From Chaetoderma sp. LZ-2023a (taxonomy: Eukaryota; Mollusca; Caudofoveata; Chaetodermatida; Chaetodermatidae), in contig CM067360.1 in the NCBI GenBank assembly GCA_034401795.1, forward strand, positions 55,461,268 through 55,525,267: a stretch of DNA of 64,000 bases. The letters run 5' to 3'. Below are positions 14,801 to 44,010 of this stretch, piece after piece. Under the pieces are notes generated by a model, which was not told the origin of the DNA, made no database searches, and saw only the letters and a program-made list of their open reading frames with translations. A program made the position numbers and the translations under genes. Position 1 is the stretch's first letter. Every line of letters begins with the position of its first letter.

Positions 14801-15183
14801 ACCTTTCCAGTTTTAGCTATGTCCCTCCCATCTCTAGCTAAGCTACACCAATACATCGATCTTGTTGGGATCGATCGATTCCCGTACGCTCTGACTATCA
14901 ATTTCCAGAAAACTATACACGTTGGCTATTAAATATTTTTAGATTAATAAATTATTTGACTGGGAGATGTTGCTGCCTATGGCAACAACAGCGCCCAGTC
15001 AATTTAGTTTCAAAATATTCATCAGAATGTTTGCTAAATGGGAAAGACATACAATTCGTACAACTATTACACGTGAAAGACGGACAATATCGAATCACCC
15101 ACGACGTTTTGAATATGACGTCATCATACACGTCATGTAGCTGATTATGACGTCATATAATGGATGGATAAACTTGGAAAGGT
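14801..15183 (+). mobile_element. MITE-A copy 5 (near complete)
   Basis: Left end 'acctttccag' (14801-14810) and right end 'cttggaaaggt' form the terminal inverted repeat. The flanks extend the inverse match ('aatag' left, 'tcattag' right). The left hairpin arm is partly lost, the right arm is intact at 14990-15030, and two TGACGTCA sites lie at about 15117 and 15148. Confidence 0.88.
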
Positions 15184-17750: not shown

Positions 17751-18100
17751 ACCTTTCCAGTATTAGCTATGCCCCGCCTATCTCTATTTAAGCTCCACCC
17801 ACATCACGCTCTTGTTGGGATCGATCGATCTCTGAACTCCATGATTATCAGTTTCCCGAAAACTATACAGGTAAACTGTTGAATATTTATGGCAGCAACA
17901 GCGCCCAGTCGAATTAGTTTCAAAATATTCAATAGCAGGTTTATTAAATAGCAAAAAATACAATGTGTACAATGTGTCAAACTATTAAGCGTTAAATACG
18001 AACTATGTCGAATCACTCATGACGGCACGATTCTGACATCAGAATATACGTCACTTAGTTGATTATGATGTCATATGATAGATGGATAAACTTGAAAGGT
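17751..18100 (+). mobile_element. MITE-A copy 6 (left hairpin arm deleted)
   Basis: Left end 'acctttccag' and right end 'cttgaaaggt'. The sequence jumps from 'gttgaatattt' directly to 'atggcagcaacagcgcccag', so nearly all of the left hairpin arm is gone while the right arm remains. This is the kind of deletion expected from a long hairpin. Confidence 0.85.
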
Positions 18101-18287
18101 GAACTAAAAACGAAATACAGTAGTGTGTAGTGTGAAGAGCAAGAGACAGATCATGCATGCATATGCCATGATGACAGAGGTGTTGATCTTGATAATATAA
18201 AGATATTCCAACTGAATAGTATTCTGTATAAATGAGATTGAACACGCACAGTTTATTCTTGGGAGAAATTATTTGAATTTAAGTGGC

Positions 18288-20035: not shown

Positions 20036-20243
20036 ATCCGGTTTTAGCTATGCATCTCTCATCTCTAGCTAAGCTCCACCTACGCTTTACTCGTGTTTTG
20101 ATCGATGCTGCCCTCACGGAATATCAATTTCCAGTAAACTCCAGGTAAGTTGTTGAATATTTTGAAGCTAATTTGCAGCAATAGCGCCAAGGCAAATTAG
20201 TTTCAAAAAATTCAGCAGAATGGCTATTAAATAGCAAAGACAG
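20036..20243 (+). mobile_element. MITE-A copy 8a (truncated)
   Basis: The left two-thirds of a MITE-A ('ttttagctatgcatctctca', 'cagtaaactccaggtaag', hairpin with a shortened loop). It stops after 'ctattaaatagcaaagaca', where the next copy begins without a gap. Confidence 0.75.
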
Positions 20244-20578
20244 TTTTGGCTATGCCCCGCCCATCTCTAGCTAAGCTACACCCACACCTCGCTCGTGTTT
20301 GGCTCGATCGATCTCTGAAATCCTTGACTATCAATTTCTAGAAAAGAATACAGGTAAGCTGTTGAATATTTTGAAACTAATTCGACTGGGCGCTGTTTCT
20401 GCCTATTGCTACCTTTCTTAAATAGTAAAAAACATACAATTCGTACAACGTGTCTGACTATTAAGCGTTAACGGGCGTAAGCGAATCATGCATGACTTCA
20501 TGCTTATGACGTCAGCAGACACGTCGCGTTGTTGATTATGACGTCATATAATTGAATAAGGAAATGGGTTCATGAATT
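20244..20578 (+). mobile_element. MITE-A copy 8b, abutting 8a
   Basis: Restarts at 'gttttggctatgccccgccc' and runs to the right-end region near 'aaggaaatgggttcatg'. The hairpin right arm is deleted. Two TGACGTCA sites at about 20507 and 20540. Confidence 0.75.
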
Positions 20579-22465
20579 GTTGCAAAGGTTAATCATTTCT
20601 GTCATGTCTCTTTGATTGTACAAATATCCCCTCCACCGGCAACCCAGCAACACAGTATTATTGTTCAGAGGACGTGATTGATAAACACACACGCGGATAT
20701 CGTAAGAATATGAGAAGGAAATTAAATACATTGTCCGGAGACATTCTTATTGATTAAGGGTCGATTGGCGGTACTCAAGTTAGCACGAGGTTAAATATAA
20801 TGGAACTCGCCTTACTATTATCACACTCTCATAATATCTCACCATTAATAAAAGGCTATGTAATGATATGCTTGCTGTAATTTGAGATATTAAAGCTAAC
20901 AGCCTTCATAGTCCATGCGTTCAAGTGCCACAGAGGAAGTGCCTTGTACTTCTTGGATTAACAGGATTAACAATGAAAAATCAGATTCGGGATCCATTCT
21001 CTATCCATAAATGTAACAGAACTGTTGCACCAAGAGAAGGAAAACGATATACACAGTCTCTGTAGGTTAATACAGAGCTCTATGACAACAGTCGACCAGC
21101 CTCCACAACTATTCATACAGGAGTTGCAATATAGGTATCGCTGTGATATTTAGGTGAGCTTTCAGATTTGTGTGACGTCAGTATGCAATATATATGTTGA
21201 AAGGTCCACGCCTGTGGACACACTTTGCACAATCTCTATCCGGAATGAGAAGTAGAAGGAAAGAATGAGTCGTTTTTGCTGTATCTTTGCTGTACATGTG
21301 TGTAACCATCTTCCATCATATAGTTCAATTATGCCAATGTCTTTACAACATGCTAAGTATTCTGTCAATTTAGTTTCTCAATATTAATTATTTCTGAAAA
21401 TATTAACCGCTTTCCTGTGTCTTTATCTTCAAATGGAGATCTGAGAACTTTCGTAATTTACGGAATAAGAACTTTGTAGAGGCACGAAGTCAATAACAAT
21501 AAACGTACCATATTATATTAGTTACATCAAGCAGTACCTGTTACTTAAGAGAGACCATGGTGTTTCTAATCTTGACTATAAGTAAAAGTGAAACAAGTGA
21601 ACGTACTACACGCTCGCTTGTATCTGGCCAGAATAGTATTATGACCAATATTTCAGAAACGTTAACAAACACACTCATTTGGAATGTGAGAAATGTCGCA
21701 ATTCCCCCCTTAATATGAGGGAAAATGACATTCACCCATCTGCCCATCTGTCTGCCCATCTGTTTATGTGTCCAACTGTCCATCTGTCAATCTATCCGTA
21801 TCTCTGTCTGGCTATATTCACTGAATTCAATAAAATTTGACATGTGAGCTACACAGCTGATTTCCGATCGCAAGACAATATTTATATGCGCCCTCAAAAC
21901 CGAGGAACAGGGACGAGGTCAAAATGTCAAATATCATAGAAATTTCATCAACCATGCGATCACCTATAACATTTGGTAGAATTCAATCAACTTTGTTTTC
22001 TGAGTTAACATACGATTGTGGACTGCTGCATGACCTTCTTATCGGTTTCGGTCCCCTGTACTGCGAGTGAGGGAAGGGGCAGATTTCCAAGTTTGGGGAG
22101 ATAATGGGGATTTACTCTGGCATGCCATCGACAGCACGTTCTTGTTTTGATATTGTTGTTGGTGAAGACTGTTACAGTCTTTTCGTTATATAAGATATCA
22201 CACATAAAAGTAATCGTTTCTTACTATTTTCGCCGCGGAGGTTAACGAGATTATGACCACGCTTAATGATAGTCTTTGGTAAGATATCCCAGTGACTGGT
22301 GATTATACACGTTCAATCTACTGACCGGTACATGTGGGATCAGATGAATAAGACATATCCAAATTCCAGTCGCTTTACAGCTAATGGCAACTAATTAAGC
22401 CAGTTGAATTGCTTTTCTATGAATGAAGCAATATTATGCAAGGCACAGAAGTTCAGCAATCAATT
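20579..22465. other. Non-coding duplicated segment
   Basis: Colinear with 4000-7240 in copy 1 (matches at 20690-20890, 21235-21300, 21515-21580 and 22345-22425). Small ORFs, including 80 aa at 21541-21783, carry no recognised domain; 21722-21800 is a degenerate CTGCCCAT tract. Confidence 0.5.
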
Positions 22466-24340
<1,875 letters not shown>

Positions 24341-24720
24341 ACCTTTCCAAGGTTATCCCCATCGGTCCTATGACGTCATATGGCGTAATAATCAACTAAG
24401 TGGCGTGTAGGATGATGTCATAATTATGACACGCCATCAATGACTCGATATAGTCCGTCTTAGACGCTTAATAGACGGACACGTTGTACGAATCGCAAGT
24501 TTTTGCTATTTCATAATCATGCTCTTGAATATTTCGAAATCAATTTGACTGACATAGGCAGCAACAGACCCAGCCAAATTAGTTTCAAAATATTCAACAG
24601 CTTACCTGTATAGTTTTCTGGAAATTGATAGTCATGGAGTTCAGGGATCGACCCAACATGAGCGTTATTTGGGCGGAGATTAGATAGAGATGGGCGGGGC
24701 ACAGATAAAATTGAAAAGGT
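24341..24720 (-). mobile_element. MITE-A copy 10 (reverse, complete)
   Basis: 'acctttccaa' at 24341 and 'ttgaaaaggt' ending at 24720 are the two terminal repeats. Contains 'ctatgacgtcatatgg', a hairpin with shortened left arm, and 'agatgggcggggcacag'. Confidence 0.88.
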
Positions 24721-27359
24721 ACCTTTAGAATCAATCAGATACATATTAGACACCTATACCACGCTAAATGCTAGTAACGACCAATCTACACGTATCCCGT
24801 TTCCTCTGATTGCGTGCGTCATAACACGGGTATTTTATTGGGATGTGGTATTTATACAAGTGTAGTGTTTATTGCGAATTGTATAATTGTAACATATGGC
24901 AATGAAAAATGTTAGATACATTATATCACTCAGACAATCAGCACACATAAAACAAGTTATTACATTTCTGCTACACGATTGAGTTAATATCAGTATTTTA
25001 GACAAAACTCGTCTGTATCAAGATGATAGAGTGTTCTCGTTCAGCCAGCCAGCCAGTCATTTAAGCCAGGATTGAAAGTATGTTCATTTCCAAAGATTAT
25101 CATTATTATCTAGTGCCATATCAGTTAACCCATTCACATTGCCTCAGCTGTGTCTTAGAACAAATACTAGTCAAAGCGAGCAGTGTAATATATGACACCG
25201 TTATACAATGTGGGACAGTCAATATATTCACAGTATGCTCAACTTAATAACAAAGACAAAATTAAAATCTTACTCATCAACTGGTCCATTGACGAGGAAT
25301 AATGCATTAAATGAGCACATTGAATATAGGTGCTGGCTGACTGACTGCCTGAACTGTTGGCCGACAGATAGACGTATATTTGTTCTGAGTAGCAACTAAA
25401 AACAAAAACCACGAGATAATTGATCATATTTAGATATAGTTATGATGTCCGTCGATAACAAATAATTGTACACCGTGGTATATATAGCAATTACCTGTCA
25501 ATGCTATAATTTCCCTCATGGTGCTGTAATTTGCTGTGTGGTAATCTGTGCTTTGCACGGCATTGTTGGCGTGATGAGCAATATTACCATTAACTCATAT
25601 CATAATACATGAGATTTGTTACATCTGCTGACACAAACGCGTGAAGATAGTGATAGATATATAGCTATTACACAATGAACACAGAAACCGTTTAGCTTTA
25701 TTTATCGCCCCAACACTGACATGGTCGCTGACAGGCGTATTCATGTGTCGGATATGTTACATCTGATAATTATTGCTTTTTAAAATCTGAACATATTGGT
25801 CTTCGAATCATGGTCAAGAACTTGTGTATACAAACATTACACATTAACCGTATTTTTGTAATAAATAGATTGTATATCACCATGAAGAACACCGTTTCCT
25901 CATCTATTGGTATGCATGCACATGATAGGGCCCGAGATCTCGCTTGTCATTGATACCATAAAATGATCTTAGGGAACCACCTCATACTAATACGAAAATA
26001 TTTAAGACCAGTCACAGCCACATACTTAATACTACCTGACTCTATCTCAAATTATGGGCTCATGTAATCCTTGTTCGCCAGAATTTGCGATTAGGAAAAT
26101 ATATTACTGTATTCTGCATTATGTCTTCCCCGATACAATGTTTATAAGTATGACTTAGTCAAGGACACTGGCCAGACATTAATACAATGTCCGCCATGAA
26201 TGTGTTGCCAATCTCAATGATAGGCCTATTCTGCTAAATTGTCTGCGAATAATTCATGAAAGAACAACTCTCAATCAGACTTCATAAAATGTTTAACTCT
26301 CTATGGGGCATACCAGGAGGTAAATGATCCTAGTATGGCAGGCTTGAATGTGTTAAGCTAAACAACTGTGCGAATATATGATACATAGCATGGGCATTCT
26401 GTTCTTTAATGAGAAACTATTCTTCATTGCCATTGCATTGTCAAGACATGGCTATTTCTTGCTGGCACGAGAAGTAATGTAATTTTCCATAGGCATGTTG
26501 TATTGGATGAGTGATAACCAGGTTTAGCACTATATTTATGTTGCAATGCGGAGCCTTAGTATTGAATCACTATTATACTGCGCGTTTCTTTGCTACAGAT
26601 CATTGTGGTAGCGTGATATGATAAACATGGACACATATTATGTCATCAGAAGTAACCATTATACAGCTTTGTGGACTAGAGGTCAAAGGTGAGGGTTGGC
26701 ACGTGGCTTTTGTTATCTATAGACACTTTATGGTCCAACAATAGAGAAATTATAAAAGTAATCTGATTGCAAATAAATTCAGAGCACCAGTTCGGCGAAG
26801 ATAAGCAACATTTATTCCATGTTGTTAAATTCCAGACTTCAAATTTCTGTAGATAACATTGAGGTCTGGATACAGTTTGAGAAAAGACAATATAAATTGT
26901 CTTCTTAAACTTGAACCGTTGCCAAGATTAAAATAATTTGATGAATGCATATGCCTGCTCAAGAGAAAGGTAGACACAAATATAGGCACAATATGTTTAA
27001 CTGTGTTTGATTATTTGTCTTATGCACATCAAGCTCAGACTATGGTAACACTTTGCATTTAGAAGAAGCGAATATTGGGAAATGAATTACGCTAGACCTC
27101 CTCGAGGTAAAGATCGGATAAGGTCTGATTAGGCCACCGAAGTAAAGACACTATGAGCTCTGAGTGAATTGAAACATCAAAGAGATGTGGTACGCTTTTT
27201 GCATCAAGCTGTGCATTTCAATTATTATTCAATTACTCATATACTTGATCCAGACATGCTCATGGATTACTCGTTTTGATGTTGCCCTCATTTATCTAGC
27301 TTGCTATAACATGGGATTTCTACGACGTTTGTTGGTGTTCCCATATAAGGGTGACCCAG
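24721..27359. other. Non-coding duplicated segment
   Basis: 25490-25640 matches 9360-9510. 26040-26300 matches 51315-51560 (shared 'attatgggctcat', 'tgcattatgtcttc'). 26400-26560 matches 10395-10560 and 52560-52700. 26890-27240 matches 53010-53395. No gene is supported. Confidence 0.5.
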
Positions 27360-28945: not shown

Positions 28946-30379
28946 GGGATGCAGGGAGCGAGGGAGAGAGATGGAAAGAGGAGGTTGCGGTGTTGATGCA
29001 AATTGTTCAACATATGGGTCAATGTGTTGTAAAAGGGGTGATGATCTAATGTGCATATTAATCAGTCGTCCAAGCGGAGTACGTAAATTAACAGTTTAAA
29101 CATGGCCATTGAGTGGTAAGTCAGGTAATGCCTATTACTTCATACTAACTATAATTAATAAAACAACTAGTAAATTACTTTAATCAGGATTTAATTAATC
29201 TGGCTTCAAATTTGGAAATTGACATTGATTACTATTACCTCTGCTTAAGTTGAGTTTTGACTAAGTTTGAATAATGTGCCCTTTGTGATCAGCAGAAGAG
29301 AGCGCCATGCTATGTTTCTAAATACACAATGTATACAGTAAGGCTATGTTCGATAAGAAGATTCGTGGAACAAAAAGATGAACATGAATAATATAATTTG
29401 ACAATCCAGATGCTGAGTATGGTTCGAAAGTTTGTAATTCATTTTTAATCTTGAACTAAGCGTACAATCGCAAGCATCTCTTTTTGTAGACAACGTATGA
29501 ATAACATAAAGTCTTTCAGTAACAATATGGACGCACACTACTATCTTTCTGCCATCCAGTCATTCGCTAAATATACATACATGTTCAATCCATATCGATT
29601 TTCTCACACTTGTTAGCAAGCCTTTTTATCTAACATGTTTCCCTGTGCGCCAATTTGTAACTCAGCAGTGCAAAATAGAGCGCCACAATCGCTCATTTTG
29701 TGCATTATGTTGCGCTGGGTTGCGTGCAGATGGGAAATAGATCACAGTAATGGCACATCTGTATCACTAATGAATCCCTGTCCTTGAACTTTAACATTGA
29801 ATCTCAATCAATTACCGACGTACTTATAAGGTTTTCCTTGGGAAGATTGCGAGAGGCTTGCTGAGTTTGCGTGGACGACGATGTGATCAATCAGGTAGCT
29901 AAGCAGGTTAGGAAGGTCTCCTATGTAAGTCTCAATGTATTGCTTCTATTCATCTTATTCAATGCAAGAACATGCTTCACGACTTTGACTGTTAATAGTA
30001 TAATGAGATTCCTGCAAGATAGCTGGATAAGTCCCCGTCTAGTGTCAAATGTCAATGCGTTCTCTGAGTAGTATACTGGATAACATCTCATTTATAAGAG
30101 CCTATCTTTAAACATTGCCGTTCTTGTTCAACTGGTGAACAGCCGTTTGTAAGATCATTACTTGGGAAATAAATACACGTCATCATTTCAATCTTTCATA
30201 GACACTGCTTTTACGGCATATTATTACCTCCCTGCCTAGAACTATGCCTACCATATGCTATCTACAGTGGCAATTCCACAATTCCGTTCGTAGCAGACGT
30301 GATTTCACGAGTGTACCTTCTATGATGTAATAAACATGTCTTAGCTCAATCGACTCTTTTGTGCCTGCCACCATAGACC
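28946..30379. other. Non-coding duplicated segment
   Basis: 29280-29500 matches 54140-54330 and 29560-30300 matches 54410-55100, colinear with copy 3. The ORF at 29871-30071 has no domain. Confidence 0.55.
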
Positions 30380-30473
30380 GCAACAACACTCAGTTATATT
30401 AGTATAAAAATGCGCAACAGTTTATCTGTATAGCTACCTTGAAACCAAGATTCTGAGAATTCAGTATTCAAAG
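30380..30473. repeat. Hairpin family B fragment, split by the Gypsy insertion
   Basis: 'cacccagtt.tattagtat.aaaatgcgcaacag' style text followed by 'accttgaaa' and 'gagaattcagtattcaaag'. It continues after the retrotransposon at 41363 with 'cctataaattg' and 'gggcggagcatggctag'. The uninterrupted equivalent is 55195-55360. Confidence 0.65.
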
Positions 30474-31768
30474 TGTGACGTAGTAACTTTATACTTAGAA
30501 AAACTTTAACAATAATATCCAAAGGAGAAAAAACAATTTGATTGTCGAAAGAAAATTCAGTTGCTAGAGGTCACCGGTTCTTAATGAATCCAATTTGTCT
30601 TAACTATAGGCGTGAGTGACGGGGGATGGGAGTAATAATATAAAAATTAAGTTTAAGTAAGAATTTTAATGAATGAATTCTCTCACCATTTGTCCACTGT
30701 TCCACAACGAATATCTATACAAATAAAATACGCAAAATTTTTCCAAAGAATAACCCAATGAAACAATTACCAGGATCTCCTGAGATCAAAGCTGAAAATA
30801 GAATGTGACTGATCACAACCTTACCTATAAAATACCCTTAACCCTTATAACCACCCAGAGGGACGTAGCCCAAAGAAAAAATATTCTTTAATAATATGGA
30901 AAATTCCAAATTTCCTCAGAATAATTAGCATAAAATATAATGCCCTAAATACATTTTACAGATATTTAAATTTCTTACCTAATTTCAGACATAGTATTTA
31001 TGTGAAGTCCGGTAAGTATAAAGTTCTTTTATATGGAATTGTCCAAATACAGATTAAATTTAACACAATACCAGAAACAAATCCACGAACATTTCTGACG
31101 GTTTCATAAATGACATTACTAAAGAACCATGTCTCTGAAAAATCCCATACACTATCCAGGTAAACACCCCATGAACTGCTTCGTGTTAACATCCAAGTAA
31201 ACACCCCATGAAACGGCTTCAGGTTAACATTCAGGTAAACACCCCATGAACTGCTTCAGGTTAACACCCAGGTAAACACCCCATGAACTGATTCAGGTTA
31301 ACACCCAGGTAAACACCCCATGAACTGCTTCAGGTTAACACCCAGGTAAACACCCCCAAACTGTTCCTCCCATATACGCGCTCAAAGTCCGAACTGCCTC
31401 ATCATCTGCCGTCAATTGACCAGTATCCAAACTACAGGCCAAATCTACAAACAGGATTCCATACTTATATTCACAGAATCATTCCTTCAAAGTTGACTTG
31501 TCAGTTGGATATGAGTGAATGGCTATCTTAAACCATCCTTCAAACAACACACAACTTTCTAGCGGTCCGGCTAATCAGAAGCGAACCTGAGTTTCGCGTG
31601 CAAAAACAGCGGGAAATACATTTCATCTGACTACGTGCCAAATTAAAGTTACCCTTAAAGTTATCCTTCCCTAACATATAAAAGAAATTTATAGAAAAAC
31701 CTAACCATATCCCAAAACACAACCTGACTGAGACAAGTGATTTTGACACAGCAAATCAATCTGTCACA
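30474..31768 (-). repeat. 3' LTR
   Basis: 1,295 bp, nearly identical to 40057-41358. Ends TGTGAC/GTCACA. Lacks a block of about 50 bp after 'aaatacgcaaaat' that the other LTR keeps, and has one more copy of the internal 37-bp repeat. A TATAAAAG box (minus strand) lies at 31026-31033. Confidence 0.95.
31152..31357. repeat. 37-bp tandem repeats inside the 3' LTR
   Basis: Five full units plus a partial one of 'aggtaaacaccccatgaact' - 'gcttcaggttaacaccc'. The other LTR has four full units plus a partial one (40779-40947). Confidence 0.92.
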
Positions 31769-33051
31769 ATCGTCCCAACCGATTTTATTGTCGTCCCGAC
31801 AATAACCATACACACAACCTTCACTATTGAAATCAGCAGAGAAATTCATAATAAATAACCTAACGCATTCATATACACATCAGTTATTTTCCAAGACTGA
31901 AAGAAATATGAATTTTTGACTTTACAAACACTACATCGCCCGTTGACCTTCCCAGATGATATAAGGATGCAGCCCAGGCTAGATGCCCTTCCACACATGT
32001 GAGATTCTATAAACTAGACAAACATGCACCAGACTGCGATAGGAGACCCTTTTCGGTCACCATCCTATCCAGCCATATAACTTCACACTGTATGGGCCTA
32101 TTATGGTTTCCCATCACAAGTGCTACTGTGGGCCACACCACCAACACTTCACACTGTAGAGGGCCTATTATGGTTTCCTTCTAAAAATGTTACTATGAGG
32201 GTGCCCCACCATTAAAACAGAAATAACATGAAGACATCTCACACATGAATTGAAATATTTTCCGAAAGAATCATAATTATAACTATTAGTTCAGAGGACC
32301 TATAACTAGAAGTACCTATCTTAGTTCAGGGATACCATGACTAAAAGTTCCAGGAATAATATATTATTCAACATCTGCGCCAATCAAAGACGGATCCATA
32401 CACACCTTTCCAACCTACCTCACAGAACCACTACTATGAATTTCACTACCTTTCAGTAGAGCTCGTATAAAATAAATATAATAATGATGATATTTAATAA
32501 TCATCAACACTATATAACTTATCAGTGACCTGGGATTCATTAGTATCTCGCAAAGGATTCAATAAAATAATAATAAAAAAATATCAGAACCGTTCAGAAT
32601 AAACATTTATCCTATGGAAAGATTCCCATTACGATGGTTATCTGAGTATAATTATAATCAAATATTCTATACATTATATTATTATAAAATACAAGACTGG
32701 AGCGGACATCCACATGCTTAAATCGGAATTATCCCACTGACCATATTCACCCGATGCCAGGATACCACCCAAGCATCGTGCAAGCGAGCAATTCACCAGC
32801 CCATATATGATAAGATAGAAGCCTCCCAAAAAGCATACTTTTATCTACATCACACTTTACATAATCTAGTAATCTGAATATATATAAGCTTCCATTCGAA
32901 ACGACCTAATTCGGACAATACCCAGAATACACCCGAAAAAAATTGTGCATGCGAGTAGTTCACCTGTCCGTATCCTAGATAAAATCAATCTTAAGAGGAA
33001 CGAGATTCCTCCCATATAATTCGATCACTAACTGTACACTAACACTGTTTA
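31769..33051 (-). other. Element 3' untranslated tail, no env found
   Basis: About 1.28 kb between the kinase stop and the 3' LTR with no convincing ORF in either strand. It contains two 66-bp direct repeats (32081-32146 and 32147-32212, 'cttcacactgta' start, 'gggcctattatggtttcc' core) and a second looser repeat pair near 32785 and 32945 ('gtgca.gcgag.a.ttcacc'). The polypurine tract next to the LTR is weak and cannot be assigned with confidence. Confidence 0.55.
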
Positions 33052-34208
33052 TTAGATGTTATAAACACCTGGTGCAACTTGGCACCAGTCACTGTCAACA
33101 TGCTGACACTTTTTGTTCACATGTGAATTCAAATCCATTGTTTCTGTAGGAACTAGACCAAATGGAGCAATACTAATGTTAGTATTGCACCCTTGGTCCA
33201 TCTTTGAAATAACTGGGACAGACACTACTTCCGAAATCTGACACCTTTCACGGACTGCGACTTCAAGATGCCTCTTTAGAGATTGGATGGCTGAACCCCA
33301 TTCCAAAATCCATTCATTCTTATGACCTAATTGGAACAGAGCTTCTCTAAAGAAATGACGACACTTCTTATAATCTGGTTGTTCTGAATATTCCAATTGA
33401 TGTACATGTGACAAGAACTTCAATAAATACGAAGGGGAATTACCTTTGGGAAAACCAGCTGTCAATGATGATGGAACCGATGCACGAAATTCTAACTTTA
33501 CTTTCAAACAGTACCCTAACTTTTCCAAATCCCCTCTACGAGATGGAATGACACCCTGATCAGCATCACAGCTAGAACATTTAAGAGTTCCACCCTGAGT
33601 TTCTTTTGAATCTTTCTTATACACCACATGATAACCTTCCTTAATGAACGGATGTGCACAACCATAATCTACCAGATATACTTCATGTTCTCGGAGTTCA
33701 CCATTAACGAATCCTAGCATGGTGTTTAATGCTTTGATGTCACCATGGACAATTCCATTAGTATGTAGATACTCTAATGTGTCTAACAATCGAATACCAA
33801 GTATCAAAACTACCTTTTCTGGTAAACATTTCTTCGTTGATTCCAGAATCTTTTGGAGACCAATGCTTAAATGTGGCATTACCAGAAACCGAAATCTTAC
33901 GTCACCCTTAAAATGAATACCTGTAGAAAGAATTTCTGGTACACCCAAATACTTCATCTTATGAGTCTCAATCCATTTGTCGATTGCTGATGAATGGGAC
34001 AAACGATGACATGCATTTTATTCACAGAATAAGGGACTTTTATCCATAGGACCATCTTTGATTACATATGAGGTTGTATTAACAACAGGCTTAGAAATCT
34101 CATCCGAGGCTAAATACCCCACACCAAAAGCACCCTTACCATTTGATTACCAATAATCCATTGCTTCTTTTTCACATCACATAATACCTCTCCGATCTTT
34201 AATGGAGA
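33052..34208 (-). CDS. VRK/CK1-type protein kinase domain carried by the retrotransposon (one frameshift, one stop)
   Basis: A kinase domain with all family landmarks. The open part (33052-34017) contains IVHGDIKALN, with the catalytic Asp at about residue 88 and the metal-binding Asn at 93, VYLVDYG (DYG in place of DFG, as in vaccinia-related kinases), and PSRRGDLEKLGYC, the subdomain IX block typical of VRKs. KYLGVPEILSTG and FRFLVMPHL match the VRK N-lobe/hinge pattern. Upstream, 34024-34140 read in the same frame gives the glycine-rich loop GKGAFGVGYLAS, the beta-3 lysine in YVIKDGP and a PLFCE helix-C segment. A TAA at 34018-34020 interrupts it. Before the loop, KIGEVLCDVKKKQWIIG (34160-34200) is in the integrase frame; loss of one G near 34137-34141 explains the shift. 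No introns. I infer a cellular VRK mRNA captured by the element. A CK1-like origin is the alternative. Whether it ever phosphorylated a target is unknown. Confidence 0.87.
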
Positions 34209-34607
34209 AACCTGACTTGGCTTTTTCTTAATTCTTACAGCTTCCATCATCCTAGGCCTTATTGCAGCAGATTGTGGTAGATTATACGGATTACTGTGTT
34301 GACCTGCTGTGCTTCTAGTGGACTGACGAGGATCTACACTCGAGCCTACATCTTCCGAAACTTCTGAGCTCACAAAGGTTGGCATCTCTGTCACACTCGA
34401 AACTGAATCTTCCATTTCTGGCACTACACGATTTAACTCATCAACCACCTGATTCACATTCCAGAACTCCGAATCATCATCTTCCCCTTCAGTCTCACTC
34501 TCCTTCTGCAAATACACCATTGATACCTCATCTGCAACATCATGATCGGTTAATTCTACAAATTCCTTTGAATCAAGTAACTCCTTTATATGGAGACATA
34601 TCTGAAT
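34209..34607 (-). CDS. Acidic, Ser/Thr-rich linker between integrase and kinase
   Basis: Open reading frame continuous with the integrase C-terminal domain upstream and with the first kinase residues downstream. It is rich in D, E, S and T (for example ESETEGEDDDSEFW and SSEVSEDVGSS) and ends in a basic stretch RIKKKPSQVS just before the kinase. No recognised domain. Its uninterrupted frame is the main evidence that the kinase was part of, or processed from, the Pol polyprotein rather than an independent gene. Confidence 0.65.
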
Positions 34608-35849
34608 AGGATGCCACAAAGAGCTAATTTCATAAATTGGACCGTTAGGATCAATTCTACATAACACTTCAAAGGGTTCAGACTTCCAATCATCTTGAAT
34701 CTTACTTCTACCTCTGACACCTCTATTTTTGATGAAAACCTTTGTTCCTGGAGTAAGAACACTCTCTCAGACGAACTGAGTATGTCGTATGGCTCTCTCA
34801 TCTGCTTTCTTTCTAGACTTTGCCCATACTAATAGAAGAGTCTCGTATAACCGCTATCTATGATCCCTTACCCAATCGTCAATATCCGAAGGAACTGAGG
34901 TGACCTGTGGAACCAAAATGTCATCAACAGGTAAATGAGGTTCTTGACCAAATAATAAGAAGAAAGGTGAATATCCTGTAGAAGCATGAGGAGTAACATT
35001 ATTAGCAAGAATTAACTCCTGTAGATATTTTCGCCATCTAACTTTCCGTTCTGGAGACAAAACACGAAGTAGATCATGAAAGGTACAATTAAACCTCTCT
35101 GTTTGACCATTACCCTGTTGTCTATATGGTGTAGTTCTAGTCTTCTTAATATTATACAAATTACATAATTCAGCTATAATCTTAGAATCAAAATCCTTTC
35201 CTTGATCGCTATGGATAGATAAAGGAATACCATACTTAACAAACCAATTGGAAACTAAAGCTTCTGCTACTGTCTTAGCTTTTTGATCCTTTGTGGGAAT
35301 ACACTGTACGAACTTGGTAAAGACATCTGTCATTACCAGAATATCCTCTTTCCCATCACTGGACCTCTCTATCTTAGTGAAGTCAATAGCTAAAATTTCC
35401 AAAGGGTTTTCTGCAAGAACATGTTTCATAGATGTCTTAACCTGAGGACTGGCTTTCGCAATAAAACATCTTTGACAATCATGGCAATGGCACTCTGCTT
35501 CAAGGTACATACCAGGCCAATAACAACGAGATCTTAATAATAACCAAGTACTTTCTTTTCCTTGATGACCCAATTCATCATGACAACCTTTTAAAACTGT
35601 TTTTCTGAGAAAGGTGGGAAGTAGTATTTGTCTTATCTGTTCTCCATGTACCCAAATGATTCTATACAATACTCCAGAAATACTTTGAATTTGATCCCAT
35701 TGCTGTACCAACTTCTTAACATTTCTAGATTCGTGGTTTAACATTTTCTTGGTTGGTTTCTGAGAATATTTCCGAAAATGAATTAACCTAGAAATATCAG
35801 GATCTAATTGCTGGAATTTTACATAATCAGAATTATCATATCTGGGCAA
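34608..35849 (-). CDS. Retrotransposon integrase (pol C-terminal part, two nonsense codons)
   Basis: Catalyses insertion of the cDNA into the genome. The 331-aa open part has the zinc-binding HHCC module (His90 and His95 in HDELGHQG; Cys125 and Cys128 in CHDCQRC) and the DDE core: Asp156 in LAIDFT, Asp215 in HSDQGKDF, Glu251 in NGQTERF, a D-35-E spacing. A TAG at 34854-34856 stops it. The same frame then continues through a TGA at 34767-34769 into a C-terminal domain with VLTPGTKVFIKN and GPIYEI, the usual Gypsy integrase tail. So the full protein ended at least at 34608 and probably ran on into the linker and kinase. The upstream join to RNase H is frameshifted near 35820-35860. Confidence 0.93.
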
Positions 35850-36529
35850 ACTGTAACAATCTCATTTATAGATACATGCAATTTATTTGAAAAATCACCC
35901 CCAGCCTGACAATCCACCAAAACCTCCTCCCTCAATTTACATGGTATAGAAGTTGGAATAGTAATCATTTCCTCATTCAGAATGGCTATACGATGATAAT
36001 TAGGAATTCGGCTTAATGCATCAGCATTTGTGTTGGATTTGCCTGAACGATACACAATTTCATAATCAAACTGGGCTAATTGCGCTACCCACCTCATCTC
36101 TGTCGCACCAAATTTAGCAGTCTTGATATATGCCAAAGGATTATTATCAGTAAAAATTGTAAATTTTGATCCGATCAAATAATCCCTAAATTTTTTGGCC
36201 CATTTCAAAGCTAAAAGTTCTAGTTTTATTGAACTATAGTTAGCATCATTCCGTTCTGAAGGTTTTAGTCCTCGGCTAGCATATGCAATTACAACAGTTC
36301 GCCCATTCTGTTTTTGTGAAAGAACAGCCCCCAATCCTTTGAAACTTGCATCCGTTTCCACAATAAATGGTAGGGAAAAATCAGGATAACATAATAAAGG
36401 ATCGGATGTTAACATTTCCTTTATATCCGCAAATGCTTTATCACATTCGGCATTCCAATTTTCTTTAAAGGATTTTTCGTCAGACCGCTGTTTCTTATTT
36501 TTCTTACAACTTCCTAATAACATATTCAA
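35819..36529 (-). CDS. RNase H domain of pol
   Basis: Degrades the RNA strand during reverse transcription. Catalytic residues are visible: Asp60 in VETDASFKGLGAVLSQ, Glu104 in KLELLALKW, Asp128 in FTDNNPLAYI and the last Asp in NTNADALSR. The N-terminal part (AFADIKEMLTSDPLL) is the RT connection segment. In frame with the RT C-terminal fragment at 36554-36853, separated by a single TAG (36554-36556), so this is one ancestral protein. It ends in a frameshift overlap of 31 nt with integrase. Confidence 0.93.
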   Translation of the reverse strand: MNMLLGSCKKNKKQRSDEKSFKENWNAECDKAFADIKEMLTSDPLLCYPDFSLPFIVETDASFKGLGAVLSQKQNGRTVVIAYASRGLKPSERNDANYSSIKLELLALKWAKKFRDYLIGSKFTIFTDNNPLAYIKTAKFGATEMRWVAQLAQFDYEIVYRSGKSNTNADALSRIPNYHRIAILNEEMITIPTSIPCKLREEVLVDCQAGGDFSNKLHVSINEIVTVCPDMIILIM

Positions 36530-36553
36530 AGGTTTTGCAACTTGGGCGAATCC

Positions 36554-36853
36554 CTACAAAAACCGACAGAAATATGAAGCTAAACCAAGAAAAGATCTTA
36601 ATTCCATTTCCGATTTGGGAGTTTGCCAATCCTTTATACAAGAGATTTTATCAGGATCTGTAGATATACCAGCACTCGAAATAACATGACCTAAGTATTT
36701 TACGCTTTCCTGAAATAGAAAACATTTCTTAGGTTTCATTTTGAGGCCAAATCCTTCCAACCGTGCAAATACCAGATTTAACCTTCTTACCATTTCCTCA
36801 AATGAGCTTCCAAATACCAGAATATCATCTATATAAACAATCAATGACAGCAA
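36554..36853 (-). CDS. Reverse transcriptase, C-terminal fragment with the YIDD box
   Basis: Carries the catalytic VYIDDILVFG motif, followed by GLKMKPKKC and KYLGHVISSAGI (palm/thumb motifs D and E of Gypsy RTs). It is out of frame with the N-terminal RT piece: an indel of one base near 36845-36862 shifts the frame just before the YIDD box. Ends in TAG after SYFCRFL, where Gypsy elements normally read on into the connection domain. Confidence 0.93.
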   Translation of the reverse strand: MLSLIVYIDDILVFGSSFEEMVRRLNLVFARLEGFGLKMKPKKCFLFQESVKYLGHVISSAGISTDPDKISCIKDWQTPKSEMELRSFLGLASYFCRFL

Positions 36854-38150
36854 ATTCCCCTAAACAAGCATGCATCATCCTGGAAAACGTCGCAGGAGAA
36901 TTGCATAGGCCCATGGGCATTCTGGTATACTCATATAAACCAGAGAATCCCACACGGAAAGCCGTTTTTGGGATATCGTCCTCTTCTATGGCACATTGAA
37001 GAAATTCATGAGCCAAATCAATGGTTGAGAAGTATTTTGATCCTTTTAGGGCATCAAAAGCCTCCTCAACCCTTGATAAGGGATGGGCATCTTTAACGGT
37101 TTTAGAATTCAGGAGGCAAAAATCTCCGCAAATTCTGAGTGTACCATCCGGTTTCTTCACCAAAACTACTGCAGATGCATAGGGAGACTTACTAGGTCTA
37201 ATAATTCCCGCTTTCAACTGGGTGTCTATATATTCTTGTACTTGTTGCATTTGATTAGGAGGAATTCGTCGGTGAGGAAGTCGGATTGGTTTTGAATCTG
37301 TCAAGGTAATGGAATGTTTAATTATATTACAGTATTCCAAATCATGATCCCCTTTACTGAAAACATAATAAAACTTCCTTAACAATACTCGTAATTGTTC
37401 CTTCTGACCTGCAGTACGATTTTCCCCTACATGTAACTGGGAAATAAGATTATCAATATCTGATTCAGAAGGAACAACTACATCTGACTGTGACTTGACA
37501 TTACTGTTATTTTCTTGTACAAGGATATTTCTTCTCCATAAACCAATTCTTTGTCCCCGATGTAAGTATATATCGTCATCGGAAAAATTTGCTACTCTAA
37601 CTGGTGCATAACCATTCGTCACTTGAACCAAACCAGGACTAACTAAAATTCCATTTGGAAGATGACTTAATACACTAGAATGTTCCACCAAGGCATGATA
37701 ACAAGCAACCTTAGGACATTTCATAGCTGAACCTGAAATAATCCGGGAAGTCCCTGCTGGAACACAAATAGGATATCTTCCGGCTACGCGAACAACACCA
37801 ACTTTTGAATCATTTATCCCGGGAGTCACTCCGGGTAACTCTCCGAACAAAGACAGTACCTGTAAACAGGATTTCTGTTCCTGAACCTGGACTAAGTTTT
37901 GAATTTGACCAGGATTGTCCAACATGACCTGATGAAAAAAACGTAGGATATTACTTCCCAAAACTCCAGGTAATTGTTGCTTCCTTTTGGAGATATGCTC
38001 CCCAATAGGATCTTTAACAACTAAAAAACCCATTTTGTTAAAAATGATACTTGAAAGCCTGATATCAGTTTCAAAATATCCTATAAAGGGAAGTTCCATT
38101 CCATTGGCTACAGAAACCGTAATTAAATCGGATACATCAGTGAGTACCAC
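36825..38150 (-). CDS. Protease C-terminal part and reverse transcriptase N-terminal part
   Basis: 441 codons, opening at GTG because the true upstream frame is broken. The first 100 residues are the C-terminal half of an aspartic protease and its exit (FIGYFETDI, PGVLGSNIL). A spacer of about 200 residues follows, then RT: LVKKPDGTLRICGDF (motif 1-2), FSTIDLAHEFLQ with the motif A Asp at about 378, and MPMGLCNSPATF (motif B). The last ten codons (after GEF) are out of frame because of the indel before YIDD. Closest in layout to Gypsy lineages of marine invertebrates, which is a general impression only. Confidence 0.92.
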   Translation of the reverse strand: MVLTDVSDLITVSVANGMELPFIGYFETDIRLSSIIFNKMGFLVVKDPIGEHISKRKQQLPGVLGSNILRFFHQVMLDNPGQIQNLVQVQEQKSCLQVLSLFGELPGVTPGINDSKVGVVRVAGRYPICVPAGTSRIISGSAMKCPKVACYHALVEHSSVLSHLPNGILVSPGLVQVTNGYAPVRVANFSDDDIYLHRGQRIGLWRRNILVQENNSNVKSQSDVVVPSESDIDNLISQLHVGENRTAGQKEQLRVLLRKFYYVFSKGDHDLEYCNIIKHSITLTDSKPIRLPHRRIPPNQMQQVQEYIDTQLKAGIIRPSKSPYASAVVLVKKPDGTLRICGDFCLLNSKTVKDAHPLSRVEEAFDALKGSKYFSTIDLAHEFLQCAIEEDDIPKTAFRVGFSGLYEYTRMPMGLCNSPATFSRMMHACLGEFAVIDCLYR

Positions 38151-38295
38151 CTCTTTACTTTTAAGATATTGATTGTAAAATGACTCCGTGACAGTGGAGG
38201 TACCCCTTCTATATAAATAATCCCTTCAGAACACTGTCCAATAGCATTATCCATAATTTTATTTGGCATATATTTATCATCACCCACTGTTTGAC
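38151..38295 (-). pseudogene. Protease N-terminal remnant lacking the DTG active site
   Basis: From the right, one frame reads GQCSEGIIYIEGVP, a normal lead-in to a Gypsy protease; the next frame picks up STVTESFYNQYLKSK, which normally follows directly after the catalytic Asp-Thr-Gly-Ser. The join is near 38195-38207, and the DTG itself is absent in all three minus frames. So a short out-of-frame deletion removed the active site. Confidence 0.7.
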
Positions 38296-38776
38296 TCACA
38301 ACAATGGTTTTTTTTTGTTTAACTGATCGTACTCAGATCGGGATGGATCACGCTTTTCTTTATACTGATTTGGAGGGTATCTACGATTGCTACCTTCACC
38401 ATGATGATTATTATCTTTATGTCTTTGAAATTGTGGACAACGATTCCTCAAATGATCAGCACTTCCACACACAAAGCATCTATAATCATTATTCCAATGT
38501 TGCAAACGCTGCTCTGGATGATTTACAGCTTGAAGTATAGCCTCCAGCAGACAGTGCATGGGACTCAATGTAAGCCTCTACATCAGCAATCCACTCATCT
38601 AATGGCACCTGCTTCTGATCACCGCTGAACCTGCCTATCTTTCGCTCAGGGGCTAGATACACTATCCGAGGCTGACCAACATTCTCACTCTCAATTTTAA
38701 TTCTAATATTCTCCTTTTCCTCTTTCAAAAGTCTCAACTCCTCCTTCAGTTTTAATATTTCATTAGCTTCAGCCAT
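38296..38776 (-). pseudogene. gag remnant: coiled coil plus zinc knuckle, core deleted
   Basis: Starts at an ATG (38776) with a charged coiled-coil segment (residues about 5-30), then GRFSGD and PLDEWIADVEAYI, the start of a Gypsy capsid domain. Near 38545-38570 the frame jumps to a second ORF that already contains the nucleocapsid zinc knuckle CFVCGSADHLRNRC (CX2CX4HX4C) and a basic tail. A capsid normally needs 200 or more residues between these points, so most of it is deleted. No particle could be made from this copy. Confidence 0.8.
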
Positions 38777-38859
38777 GACAATACTTATAGATATATCCTA
38801 AGAAAATATCTAAAATTCTAAAAGTGAAGATAATGTAAATACTTCCAAGAGACAGAATC

Positions 38860-39570
38860 TTATCTACTTTCCCTAGCAAATACATGCATTAATGAATTTA
38901 ACCATTTCTGTTTTACTTCTGACTTAGCATGCATGCCATCGTAAAGTCTAGAGAAATGATACGAGGTTACCATCCTTTTATAACTCCCACCAAAAATCTT
39001 CTTATAATGAGTATGGACAATATCTTTATGCCAAAATACAGTAAACACTCTATTCTCTGCAAGATTTTCTGAGACTATAAAGTCATTCACCTCAGTCACC
39101 CTGTCATTCAATTCCTCTTGATATTGTAACAACTCTGATTTTGAAAATAAAGACTGCTCTAATTTTCCTTTATCCACTTGGGATTTAATATGTTCCAGAA
39201 AGGAAAATGGAGGAAAGGTAATCAACCCAAAATACACATTAGGTCTAATAGACTTTATCTCTTGTTTAAATTCTACTAATCGAGTGCACAATTCTGCTGC
39301 AGAAACTGTGGATAGAATTATCTCTTCTCCATCTTGCTGATACCTACAGCTCAACAAATCATTGATTCCTACACACACCGTAAGATAGATAGTATCGTCA
39401 ATGTTGGTATTTAATTTAATAAATGACACAGTCAATTTTCTAAGGGATGTAACCATAGCTCCATGCCTTATGACATAATCTACATGAAAATCTGGTTGAG
39501 GATAATAATTGAAATTATTTCCTCTGGAATTCACACTCAAAACAAATTTATTCATATGAACATCGTTCAC
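38860..39570 (-). CDS. SGNH/GDSL-esterase-like ORF upstream of gag
   Basis: 236 codons, intact, on the coding strand of the element, between the leader and gag and 83 bp from the gag start. First codon is GTG at 39570; the first ATG is residue 6 (39555). It shows VCVGINDLL at 65-73, which fits SGNH block III (GxND), and YDGMHAK with Asp211 and His214, which fits block V (DxxH). FHVDYVIRHGAMVTSLRKL resembles the region around block II. The block I nucleophile (GDS) is not recognisable, so activity is doubtful in this copy. SGNH domains are known in some non-LTR retrotransposon ORF1 proteins (for example CR1); position before gag in an LTR element is unusual. Alternative: an unrelated fold with chance motifs. 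Confidence 0.6.
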   Translation of the reverse strand: MNDVHMNKFVLSVNSRGNNFNYYPQPDFHVDYVIRHGAMVTSLRKLTVSFIKLNTNIDDTIYLTVCVGINDLLSCRYQQDGEEIILSTVSAAELCTRLVEFKQEIKSIRPNVYFGLITFPPFSFLEHIKSQVDKGKLEQSLFSKSELLQYQEELNDRVTEVNDFIVSENLAENRVFTVFWHKDIVHTHYKKIFGGSYKRMVTSYHFSRLYDGMHAKSEVKQKWLNSLMHVFARESR

Positions 39571-40036
39571 TATGAATCCAGGAATCGTACTTCTATTTAC
39601 ACATTCATTCTATCCTAACAAGGTTACAAGGAAGAACTAATTCCAATAAAAAAATGCATGAAATTGATGATGACAATTCACTGTATGGAAGTTACTACCT
39701 AGTATATTAATTTATAAAAAATTAACTTACTAAACAAACGAGATCTTATCACTTATCTTATAACTTGACACAGCTTCTGGGGCTCAATGCTCACCAATCA
39801 CCATCTGTACACAGCCATACCTAGATACTGTATCAGTGGTGTTTGCCTTTTTAACCTCTCTTAATGACAAAAATGTCAACTGTAAAATTGTGAACAGTCA
39901 CCAGCTAAATTCCAACTCTAGAGAAATCCCCAATAATCACTTCATTTAAAAGAAATCCTAACAAAAACTTATATATCCAATAAGACAAATTTCAACACTT
40001 TTTCACCCTATTCTGACACATTTTTAACAACAATTC
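39571..40036 (-). other. Element 5' leader, non-coding
   Basis: About 470 bp between primer-binding site and first ORF; no ORF or hairpin of note. Confidence 0.5.
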
Positions 40037-40054
40037 ATCCTAGTCAAAGCGCCA
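40037..40054 (-). promoter_or_regulatory. Putative tRNA primer-binding site
   Basis: Two bases inside the 5' LTR the minus strand reads TGGCGCTTTGACTAGGAT. A start with TGG (complement of tRNA CCA) at this position is expected for Gypsy elements. I cannot assign the tRNA by eye. Confidence 0.6.
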
Positions 40055-40652
40055 ATTGTGACGTAGTAACTTTATACTTAGAAAAACTTTAACAATAATA
40101 TCCAAAGGAGAAAAACCAATTTGGTTGACTAAAGAAAATTCATTTGCTAGAGGTCACCGGTTCTTAATAAATCCAATTTGTCCTAACTATAGGCGTGAGT
40201 GACGGGGGATGGGAGCAATAATATAAAAATTAAGTTTAAGTAAGAATTTTAATGAATGAATTCTCTCACCATTTGTCCACTGTTCGACAACGAATATCTA
40301 TACAAATGAAATACGCAAAATACTGAATATATTACATAATTCCTTAAACACTTAACATGCAAAAATAATTTTTTCATTTCAAAGAATAACCCAATGAAAC
40401 AATTACCAAGATCTCCTGAGATCAAAGTTGAAAATAGAATATGACTGATCATAACCTTACCTATAAAATACACTTAATCCGTATAACCACGCGGAGGGAC
40501 GTAGCCCAAAGACAAAATATTCTTTAATAATATGGAAAATCCCCAGAATAATTAGCATAAGATATAATGCCCTAAATACATTTTACAGATATTTAAATTT
40601 CTTATCTAATTTCTGACATAGTATTTATGTGAAGTCCGGTAAGTATAAAGTT

Positions 40653-40660
40653 CTTTTATA
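40653..40660 (-). promoter_or_regulatory. TATA box of the 5' LTR
   Basis: TATAAAAG on the coding strand, conserved in the other LTR at 31026-31033. Confidence 0.5.
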
Positions 40661-40778
40661 TTGAAATGTCCAAATACAGATTAAATTTAACACAATACCA
40701 GAAGCAAATCCAGGAACATTTCTGACGGTTTCATAAATGACATTACTAAAGAACCATGTCTCTGAAAAATCTCACCCA

Positions 40779-40947
40779 CTATCCAGGTAAACACCCCATC
40801 AACTGCTTCAGGTTAACATTCAGGTAAACACCCCATGAACTGCTTCAGGTTAACACCCAGGTAAACACCCCATGAACTGCTTCAGGTTAACACCCAGGTA
40901 AACACCCCATGAACTGCTTCAGGTTAACACCCAGGTAAACACCCCAG
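40779..40947. repeat. 37-bp tandem repeats inside the 5' LTR
   Basis: Four full units plus a partial unit; one unit fewer than in the 3' LTR. Located downstream of the LTR left end and upstream of the TATA box in transcription direction, so in U3, where such repeats often act as enhancers. Confidence 0.92.
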
Positions 40948-41362
40948 AACTGTTCCTCCCATATACGCGCTCAAAGTCCGAACTGCCTCATCATCTGCCG
41001 TCAATTGACCAGTATCCAAACTACAGGCCAAATCTACAAACAGGATTCCATACTTATATTCACAGAATCATTCCTTCAAAGTTGACTTGTCAGTTAGATA
41101 TGAGTGAATGGCTATCTTAAACCATCCTTCAAACAAACACACAACTTTCTAGCGGTCTGGCTAATCAGAAGCGAACCTGAGTTTCACGTGAAAAAACAGC
41201 GCGAAATACATTTCATCTGACTACATGCCAACTTAAAGTTACCCTTAAAGTTATCTAGCCCTAACATATAAAAGAAATTTATGAAAAAACCTAACCATAT
41301 CCAAAAACACATCCTGACTGAGACAAGTGATTTTGACACAGCAAATCACTCTGTCACAATAG

Positions 41363-43150
41363 CCTATAAATTGATTCCAGCACTAGGAAAAGTATAAATG
41401 GGCGGAGCATGGCTAGAAATTGGCGGAGTATAGATAGAAATGGATGTCTCTATATTCACACATTACGTGACTCAACACGGGTTCAGCTTTAAGCACCACA
41501 ACTCCTCCCACCTCCAGATTAGCATAGCATAGACGAGCTACCACAATGCTAAAGCCAAGGGTAGCTGTATAACATGATTCAAATTATTTATTAATAGATG
41601 ATACTTAAATTTATTTAAATGCGTAATCAAAATTAGATACCAAAATCTGTAAAATCTGCAATGTGAAAGGAGAGATACACGCAGACCTTCTGTGTTTCTG
41701 GATATCTACTGCTAAGAACAATCACTATGAGAAACAATAGGCTAGCAAATGATACCCACACAACATTAACTAATGCCAATCTAGCTAAAGCACTGTGAAG
41801 AATAGTTCACATGAACTCGTTCATGAAATCTTACATTAACAAGTCACATATCTGTCATCAATATTTACAATGCAAAATGACATCATGGAATCATCGTAGT
41901 AACTATTTCCTGGTCAGAGGTGTCCACCTGATAGTGGTGTGTATAGTACAGGGAGCGGTTAATGGCATAGATAATTCAACCTGGTAAAGTGGATATTCAT
42001 TATTTGGTACCTTTTCAAGACCTCAAGTGCGTCTGCTTTCTTAAATTAATATCACAGAAAAGGCATAATAAAACGTGTTGCGATATATCCTGCATATGAT
42101 AAAATTATGCTGCATATTCTGAAAAATCATTTAGTGGAAGGTTCATACAGACGCTGAAGTCAAATTGGTTTCTGAATATACTGCATAATACATCTCGTTA
42201 GAATTTAGGGACGCGGCCATCCACGGGGGACATGAATCATTTTTCTGGAGGAGATAGCGTGGTCTCATTACAGGGGTGGTATCACAAGTTGATGATAAAA
42301 AGTCATTTTATAACAAACACGATTGTCATAGAATGTGGGGATTTCATTGCAGATGAATTTGTCCCATTAACAGTATTATTCGACAATAAACAGGCATGAG
42401 TAGCGTGCTGAATTCCATTTCATAATTTGTGAATATTTGAGAAAAATTTTGTACAACACTTAGAAATGTAGAAATCCGTGCATGATTGATGAGAACTTTA
42501 ATTCATTCATGTTGCTGTCTTTTTATTTAACTAAGCTTTGCCTTAAGCTTATGGTGTCATGTTGCACATACCTCAAAACGTGCTCCAAAGTCCCCATTCC
42601 ACACGCTCATGCATAATCATTTGGTTGACATCATATTCAGTAGGTCCGTCATGTACATTCATGAAAAATTTATGCCAATCTGACATACTGATTGTCGATG
42701 TCAGGGCTCATAACATCGTGTATCATTTTATTGTCGCATGGGCGTGTTATCTGATACCAAACTAGAATCTCAGATAAATTAAGTGTCACTGTCTGGTTTG
42801 TTAATCATAATCTCTGTCGATGCAATAGCATTATCGTGGTAGGATGTGCCATGTATATAGGGTGTATTGCTTTATATGATCTGTACGTATTCGTATTCAA
42901 AGCTGCGCCATTGGTTTTTAAATCGATCATCTAGGCAAGTGTTACATGTAAACACGAATCACGCAGAAACAATATCATAGTTTGTCATAGATACATTGTA
43001 TTTCTAAATTAATCTCGTATTTTACATGACCCCAACGTAGCTGTCATGATGCAAATACGCCACATGTTAGTTGATGTCACAATCAAAATGCCTTATATTC
43101 GTATGATGAATATTGAAAAGCTAATCAGGAAATGTACGAATTGTATGTTT
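41363..43150. other. Non-coding duplicated segment
   Basis: 41363-41590 matches 55285-55500 (right half of the split family B fragment and following text). 41840-42020 matches 23260-23520 and 55755-56030. 42400-42770 matches 61990-62370 (shared 'ttggttgacatcatattc', 'ccatgtatcattttattgtcgc' with changes). Small ORFs have no domain. Confidence 0.55.
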
Positions 43151-43340: not shown

Positions 43341-43642
43341 CGCGGCTTTGTTAAGAATTGGATGGGCATAGTTAGTAATGGCTACCTCTATTTTGTGGTA
43401 AAACCTCTGGGAATAGGCAATGGTATCAGAAACATGTTTATATATTATGTTACGAATAGCTGCAAGAGCAATAGTATTGCGGGCGTGATTGAATTATCGA
43501 ATGTGAGAATATCGATTTTTAACATTACACGCGACTCCTTTAAAATAAAGCTATTCTCCATTATGTTCTTCTGCTGACTTCATTTGAATGGCCAAGTTCA
43601 GTTTATATAAGACAGTTTAATGCAATCCTCTCAAGAGCAACG

Positions 43643-44010
43643 AACTGTTCCATTTTTAGCCATGCCCCGCCCATCACTAGCTAAGCTCCACCCACACCTC
43701 GCCGTGTTGGGATTGATCGATCCTCCAAATGCCTTAGCTATCAATTTCCTGAAACCTATACAGGGAAGCTGTTGAATATTTTGTAACTAATTTGACTGAG
43801 TGCCCAGTCAAATTAGTTTCAAAATATTCAACAAAATATTTATTAAATAGTAAAAGCAAACAATTTGTACAACAACGCATAGATGGTCTTCAAATATGCG
43901 TTCGCGACGTATTTATCGACGTCATTCATGACGTCATTCATTATGATGTCAATGTACACATCACGCAGTTCATTATGTCGTCATATGATGTGTGGGTACT
44001 CTGGAAATGT
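43643..44010 (+). mobile_element. MITE-A copy 11
   Basis: 'tgttccatttttagccatgc', 'cacccacacctcgcc', 'tatcaatttcc', then a compact hairpin 'gttgaatattttgtaacta' / 'tagtttcaaaatattcaac' with only a few bases of loop, TGACGTCA at about 43929, and right end 'ctggaaatgt'. Confidence 0.82.

Follow-up and report, generated by a model that had tools for sequence, protein, structure and literature searches.

A VRK-type protein kinase behind the Pol integrase in a Gypsy retrotransposon lineage of Chaetoderma, probably captured once and kept under selection

The locus studied here raises the question whether a VRK-type protein kinase lying behind the integrase of a Ty3/Gypsy retrotransposon belongs to a lineage of mobile elements or is a stray gene copy within a single dead element. 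The window, i.e. the whole stretch of 64,000 nucleotides that was analysed (C2:55461268-55525267), was compared with the 2.44 Gb genome of the same species and with protein, structure and viral contig collections. The features of the element are listed in Table 1.

Table 1. Features of the retrotransposon in the window, in window positions
Feature	Position	Strand	Basis or remark
Whole Ty3/Gypsy element, decayed	30474-41358	-	10,885 bp; LTR pair, target duplication, empty site
5' LTR (sense = minus)	40057-41358	-	TGTGAC...GTCACA ends
3' LTR	30474-31768	-	LTR pair comparison
5' ORF, 249 aa	38860-39609	-	Upstream of Gag; GIND and DGxH motifs
Zinc-knuckle part of Gag	38296-38577	-	Pfam match below cut-off
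Reverse transcriptase, first part	36825-38225	-	Pfam RVT_1, E 3.7e-11
RNase H	35819-36553	-	Pfam RT_RNaseH_2, E 4.8e-31
Integrase, H2C2 and DDE core	34854-35861	-	Pfam rve, E 4.6e-14; H2C2, E 1.1e-14
Integrase C-terminal part and acidic Pol tail, to HSNPYNLPQSA	34266-34766	-	Pol matches; end point counted by hand
Junction zone, Pol tail to VRK N-terminus	34206-34265	-	Read from alignments
First kinase residues PLKIGEVLCDVKKKQWIIGNQM	34140-34205	-	Frame of the Pol tail; comparison with VRK N-terminus
Kinase N-lobe, P-loop GKGAFG and VIK lysine	34021-34140	-	Frame differs from that of the tail in the window copy
Main kinase ORF, 321 aa: HGDIKALN, DYG, SRRGDLE	33052-34017	-	About 21 codons lacking after GYC

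On the minus strand, the Pfam matches follow each other in the order reverse transcriptase, RNase H and integrase, as is typical of Metaviridae (Ty3/Gypsy), and the LTRs show the TG...CA ends and the short target duplication of this group, here the 4 bp AAAG/ATAG with one mismatch. The two LTRs are separated by 53 substitutions over 1248 aligned bases, corresponding to a K2P distance of 0.044; an age estimate from the raw blastn identity of 88.8% was dropped in favor of this substitution count. A diverged duplicate of the flanks (54138-55910) retains a site without the element at about 55290, and comparison of the flanks with this duplicate gave a K2P of 0.248 over 1726 bases. Since the distance between the LTRs is so much smaller than that between the flanks, the element was inserted after the flank duplication. 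LTR dating of five other copies led to two plausible values, K2P 0.028 (896 aligned bases) and 0.021 (343 aligned bases), and to a doubtful third of 0.012 over only 252 bases; the remaining two copies were unusable.

The original prediction placed a VRK-type kinase downstream of a DDE integrase, on the same strand and inside the LTRs, and the Pfam and VRK1 matches agree with this. Compared with solved structures, the kinase ORF matched VRK1 with an E-value of 2.6e-52, and its best protein match was a VRK1-like protein of Crassostrea virginica with 42% identity. The VRK catalytic motifs HxDIKxxN and DYG are present, as is the exact SRRGDLE block. The kinase domain had also been called complete, which does not hold for the window copy: the frame changes within the P-loop, where the pol frame stops at ...QWIIGNQM and GKGAFG is read in another frame, a stop is found at 34018-34020, and compared with VRKs the sequence after GYC is short of about 21 codons. 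By our own reading of the match coordinates, other close copies carry about 63 nt more than the window copy behind GYC. The predicted structure of the kinase reached a mean pLDDT of 51.5 and was too poor for use.

The window copy is dead, with stops and frame changes in both pol and kinase, including two stops between the integrase core and the tail ORF. For the time since the insertion, a simulation of decay yielded about 1.1 new stops for the kinase ORF and about 4.0 for the pieces of pol, and by our own reading one stop is seen in the kinase and three in pol. As simulated and observed numbers are alike in both parts, kinase and pol of this copy probably decayed together.

We also assessed the region joining integrase and kinase. 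Integrase C-terminus, acidic stretch and first kinase residues had been predicted to share one open frame, and this frame is indeed found as a 218-aa ORF at 34110-34766. Of the 120 related Pol proteins listed, 95 matched it with an E-value of 1e-3 or lower, and the acidic stretch was therefore dismissed as a special feature of the element: it is the ordinary Pol tail of the clade. These 120 proteins were listed out of 415 found by an integrase search, the best of them sharing 51% identity with the window integrase. In the eight alignments shown, the Pol tails are of the R-[RS]-x-R-x-x-A-G-x-H-S-N-x-x-x-L-P kind and are followed by a short further stretch; the VRK-like residues of the window copy start about 20 codons behind the HSN-type tail motif by our own count. 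Neither BLAST with the window kinase nor a VRK profile revealed a VRK match in any of the 120 listed Pols. A search for long proteins with a window-type kinase yielded three hits among 1093 candidates, none with Pol domains in the Pfam list. This absence of a Pol-kinase protein is weak evidence, since gene catalogues usually mask transposons. In viral contigs no relative was found with kinase, VRK alignment or RNase H queries, and the integrase query gave a single weak match (L001).

Searching the genome with the kinase gave 76 matches from 91 candidates. Besides the window there are ten close copies, whose kinase is 90-93% identical to that of the window over the first half, and all ten carry integrase and Pol tail upstream of the kinase. 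Tail and kinase lie in one open frame in seven of them (L011, L012, L013, L015, L017, L019, L020), and in two of the ten (L013 and L015) this frame also includes integrase residues; several copies with an open junction have stops later in the kinase. The other three (L014, L016, L018) show a frame change as in the window copy. Seven distant loci were tested (L029, L030, L033-L037), in which the main kinase match is 37-61% identical to the window kinase. The order integrase, tail, kinase is present in all seven, and in L029, L034 and L037 one open frame runs from the tail into the kinase start. L035 and L036 are nearly identical and perhaps represent one insertion on two contigs, so that perhaps six insertions were sampled. 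At five further distant places an integrase lies upstream, judged by position alone. A search for further elements with the same Pol-kinase junction, proposed as a check of the original prediction, thus led to ten close copies and seven distant loci, so that the absence of any such element, which would have refuted the prediction, does not apply. The seven open junctions among the close copies support its suggestion that the kinase may be expressed as an extension of Pol.

One distant match (L083, C9:121182464) is an uninterrupted frame of 340 aa, perhaps an intronless copy. Its sequence resembles a casein kinase 1 rather than a VRK.

To trace the origin of the kinase we turned to the VRK gene of the host, located at C15:79995580-80065575. 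Unlike the uninterrupted kinase of the elements, this gene consists of at least six exons spread over about 70 kb, in line with the predicted acquisition of a spliced VRK transcript. The host VRK shares 60% identity with its C. virginica counterpart (128/213), 58% with a mammalian VRK1 (121/209) and 46% with the window kinase (98/213 compared columns). In a kinase tree with one distant VRK-like protein (P0123) as outgroup, the 18 element kinases form one clade with a support of 99, or of 94 once the host gene is included. They are placed inside a clade with mollusc VRKs, supported by 94, or 97 when the host gene is added. The node uniting the host gene with the element kinases alone has a support below 50, and L033, L034 and L037 sit on long branches. 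The simplest reading of these sequences is a single capture of a spliced VRK transcript.

Selection on the kinase was assessed by dN/dS according to Nei-Gojobori, with codons of in-frame matches compared by position, pieces of one copy in different frames combined in one row and stops excluded. A comparison of kinase dN/dS among copies had been proposed beforehand, and the ratio was below 1 in every computable pair. Between close copies the median was 0.57 (below 1 in 55/55 pairs), a value that includes post-insertion decay, which raises dN/dS. Close-distant pairs had a median of 0.28 (range 0.16-0.42; below 1 in 68/68 computable of 77 pairs) and distant-distant pairs one of 0.33 (18/18 computable of 21), ratios of distant pairs being rough because dS is high. 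For the integrase, the function of which is beyond doubt, we obtained 0.57 between close copies (51 of 55 pairs computable, 43 of them below 1), 0.16 for close-distant and 0.15 for distant-distant pairs; it is cleaner than the kinase only between distant copies. The corresponding values of the Pol tail were 0.76 (45/55 below 1), 0.38 and 0.39. The 3' non-coding stretch gave no alignment in six of the seven distant loci, and the integrase aligns in all seven.

Functional residues are largely kept as well. The catalytic Asp is present in all 18 element kinases, the DYG Asp in 17 and Asn98 in 16. The exact SRRGDLE block is found in only 10 of the 18 loci, including the window, and is altered in the other eight; L034 has lost both DYG and SRRGDLE. 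A cruder comparison agrees with the dN/dS values: the window kinase keeps 40 of 48 residues that are invariant in 21 VRK representatives and 19 of 38 near-invariant ones (Fisher p 0.0012 for invariant versus near-invariant retention), with 19/61, 17/66 and 17/90 kept at less conserved positions. That the kinase was kept under selection in many copies suggests that it is useful to the element.

We determined the occurrence of the kinase among relatives by an integrase search of the genome, in which the best 120 of 14,966 candidates were scored, leaving 118 places after merging. At 86% integrase identity or more there are 13 places including the window, and among the matches listed the kinase is present at 11; as for the remaining two, L041 has an inverted kinase start and L040 shows no downstream kinase match. 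At 63-85% a listed kinase match is present at five of 12 places, and six of the other seven were inspected, with kinase pieces in L046, L050 and L051 and none in L047-L049. Among the matches listed, the kinase accompanies 2 of 66 places at 57-62% and none of 27 below 57%. Because only 2 of these 66 places match, elements of this type live without the kinase, and the capture therefore took place on the branch leading to the group of the window, the alternative being a loss of the kinase from sister families. Ordinary Pols of the clade share RNase H, integrase and the kind of tail with the window element, but a VRK match was found in 0/120 listed relatives and in none of the five loci L042-L045 and L052. 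In the latter, with integrases at 60-62%, the Pol tail is open over 289 or 300 aa and is not followed by a kinase match. At least 19 places at 59-60% have Pol frames of 1494-1495 aa, one with an internal stop; L043 is among them. Members of this sister group, e.g. C15:123313938 and C5:15453798, have near-equal scores and come without listed kinase matches, and the group looks recently active. A few residues at the end of the Pol tail of L042 and L052 (DTNKDQWKLD in L042) bear a faint likeness to the N-terminus of VRKs, which may be due to chance or may be the remnant of a lost kinase.

From these sequences we consider it very probable that a mollusc-type VRK1 was captured once, long ago, joined to the end of Pol and subsequently held under purifying selection in several families. 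A spliced mRNA of the VRK1 would have been attached to the pol gene of such an element of Ty3/Gypsy type immediately after the conserved tail end, at the point where related Pols carry their own short stretch. The lineage would later have split into several families retaining the kinase behind the integrase, with purifying selection acting on it during their spread. The kinase would be translated as a C-terminal extension of Pol and enter the particle together with the integrase. It could phosphorylate BAF and thereby keep new element DNA accessible until it is completed and integrated.

A published account of BAF (PMC4063967) states that the protein binds and compacts foreign cytoplasmic DNA, impedes poxvirus DNA replication and associates with retroviral pre-integration complexes. 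According to the same account, the poxvirus kinase B1 phosphorylates and inactivates BAF, blocking its antiviral effect, and VRK1 phosphorylates BAF in mitosis. It also reports that BAF guards retroviral DNA against autointegration (PMC4063967), and a simple gain from its removal is therefore disfavored. Action on BAF is the most likely role we can offer for the kinase, and we put it forward tentatively. Equally tentative is the wider proposal that this Gypsy lineage may encode an active VRK as a C-terminal domain of Pol, package it and disarm BAF on its own DNA, as an independently evolved counterpart of B1.

There are two main alternatives to BAF as the target. If the fusion was kept, the kinase might also act on nucleosomes at the integration site instead of on BAF, which we regard as somewhat unlikely. 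Such a target fits the arrangement in two of the ten other close copies, where the kinase follows the integrase within a single frame, and the best matches among solved structures are VRK1 chains, including 7tan_K, presumably an entry of a nucleosome complex. VRK1 has a basic C-terminal tail. The second alternative, phosphorylation of the element's own Gag or integrase, by which the kinase would time assembly or disassembly of the particle, appears unlikely: wherever the frame is open the kinase lies in cis with the integrase, but the VRK substrates known to us are host proteins. Independent captures of VRKs by several element families are quite improbable. The support below 50 for the node of host gene and element kinases and the three long branches would allow for them, but the element kinases are monophyletic with 99 and 94, and close and distant loci alike have the join after the same Pol tail. 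Finally, a processed VRK pseudogene that ended up in a single dead element by accident, or that was a passenger of no use to its carrier, is hardly credible and, as the single-element event that the original prediction had named as its alternative, was rejected. Although the window kinase is broken and related families lack the kinase, the same order recurs in ten close copies and seven distant loci, the host gene falls outside the one clade formed by the 18 kinases, and dN/dS lies below 1 with a close-distant median of 0.28. One stop is seen in the kinase, where the simulation gave about 13 in the ORF at 0.5 neutral substitutions per site and about 1.1 for the time since the insertion.

In the open-licence literature we found no VRK or other kinase in a Gypsy Pol. 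The capture recalls retroviral oncogenes, where a spliced cellular kinase was likewise taken up by a reverse-transcribing element. Captured retroviral oncogenes replace viral genes and their carriers are mostly defective, whereas the present element has reverse transcriptase, RNase H and integrase, and several families have the kinase in common. LTR retrotransposons of bdelloid rotifers have likewise acquired an enzyme gene behind pol (PMC5408684). According to the main text of that work, their additional ORF3 encodes a GDSL esterase or a DEDDy exonuclease and does not depart significantly from neutrality, and a kinase is not mentioned there (PMC5408684). In contrast, the kinase described here has a dN/dS below 1, and it is not a separate ORF behind pol, the tail-kinase frame being open in seven of ten close copies. 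Poxviruses with B1, related to VRK1, provide a further case of a mobile genome with a VRK-type kinase (PMC4063967). B1 is a free kinase of a DNA virus, whereas the present kinase lies behind the Pol of a retroelement.

Captured genes in LTR retrotransposons are already known, and selection on them has seldom been shown. In the present case a signalling enzyme whose animal counterparts act on BAF and chromatin was retained behind the integrase across several families. Disarming of BAF by a retroelement in the manner of poxviruses becomes testable, as does a role of BAF as a barrier to retrotransposons in animals, and the natural fusion of integrase and kinase offers material for studies of integration.

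The element further contains the 249-aa 5' ORF, for which Pfam and PDB searches gave no useful match. Its GIND and DGxH motifs presumably recall SGNH hydrolases. In the genome, 595 candidates were found for this ORF, of which 150 were scored, and it also occurs beside families lacking the kinase; its predicted structure, with a mean pLDDT of 35.8, was too poor for use. At L085 (C2:408213-409154) an element-type 5' ORF directly precedes a kinase fragment, perhaps representing an element copy with an internal deletion.

During mapping of the window we noticed several repeats. An old duplication relates 26344-27242, 29284-30473 and 41361-41972 to 52515-53403, 54138-55291 and 55290-55910 with 72-75% identity in blastn pieces, and preserves the insertion site in its empty state. 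Copies of a dispersed repeat, about 300-400 bases long and roughly 69-86% identical, lie in both orientations at eight places (4921-5217, 12918-13341, 14796-15155, 17742-18103, 20240-20555, 22456-22841, 24323-24736 and 43636-43990). The window also contains a tandem array at 13765-14570 with a period of about 68 bases, as given by the spacing of self-matches, and a near-perfect palindrome at 55869-56270, where 402 bases are 99% identical to the reverse complement of this same stretch.
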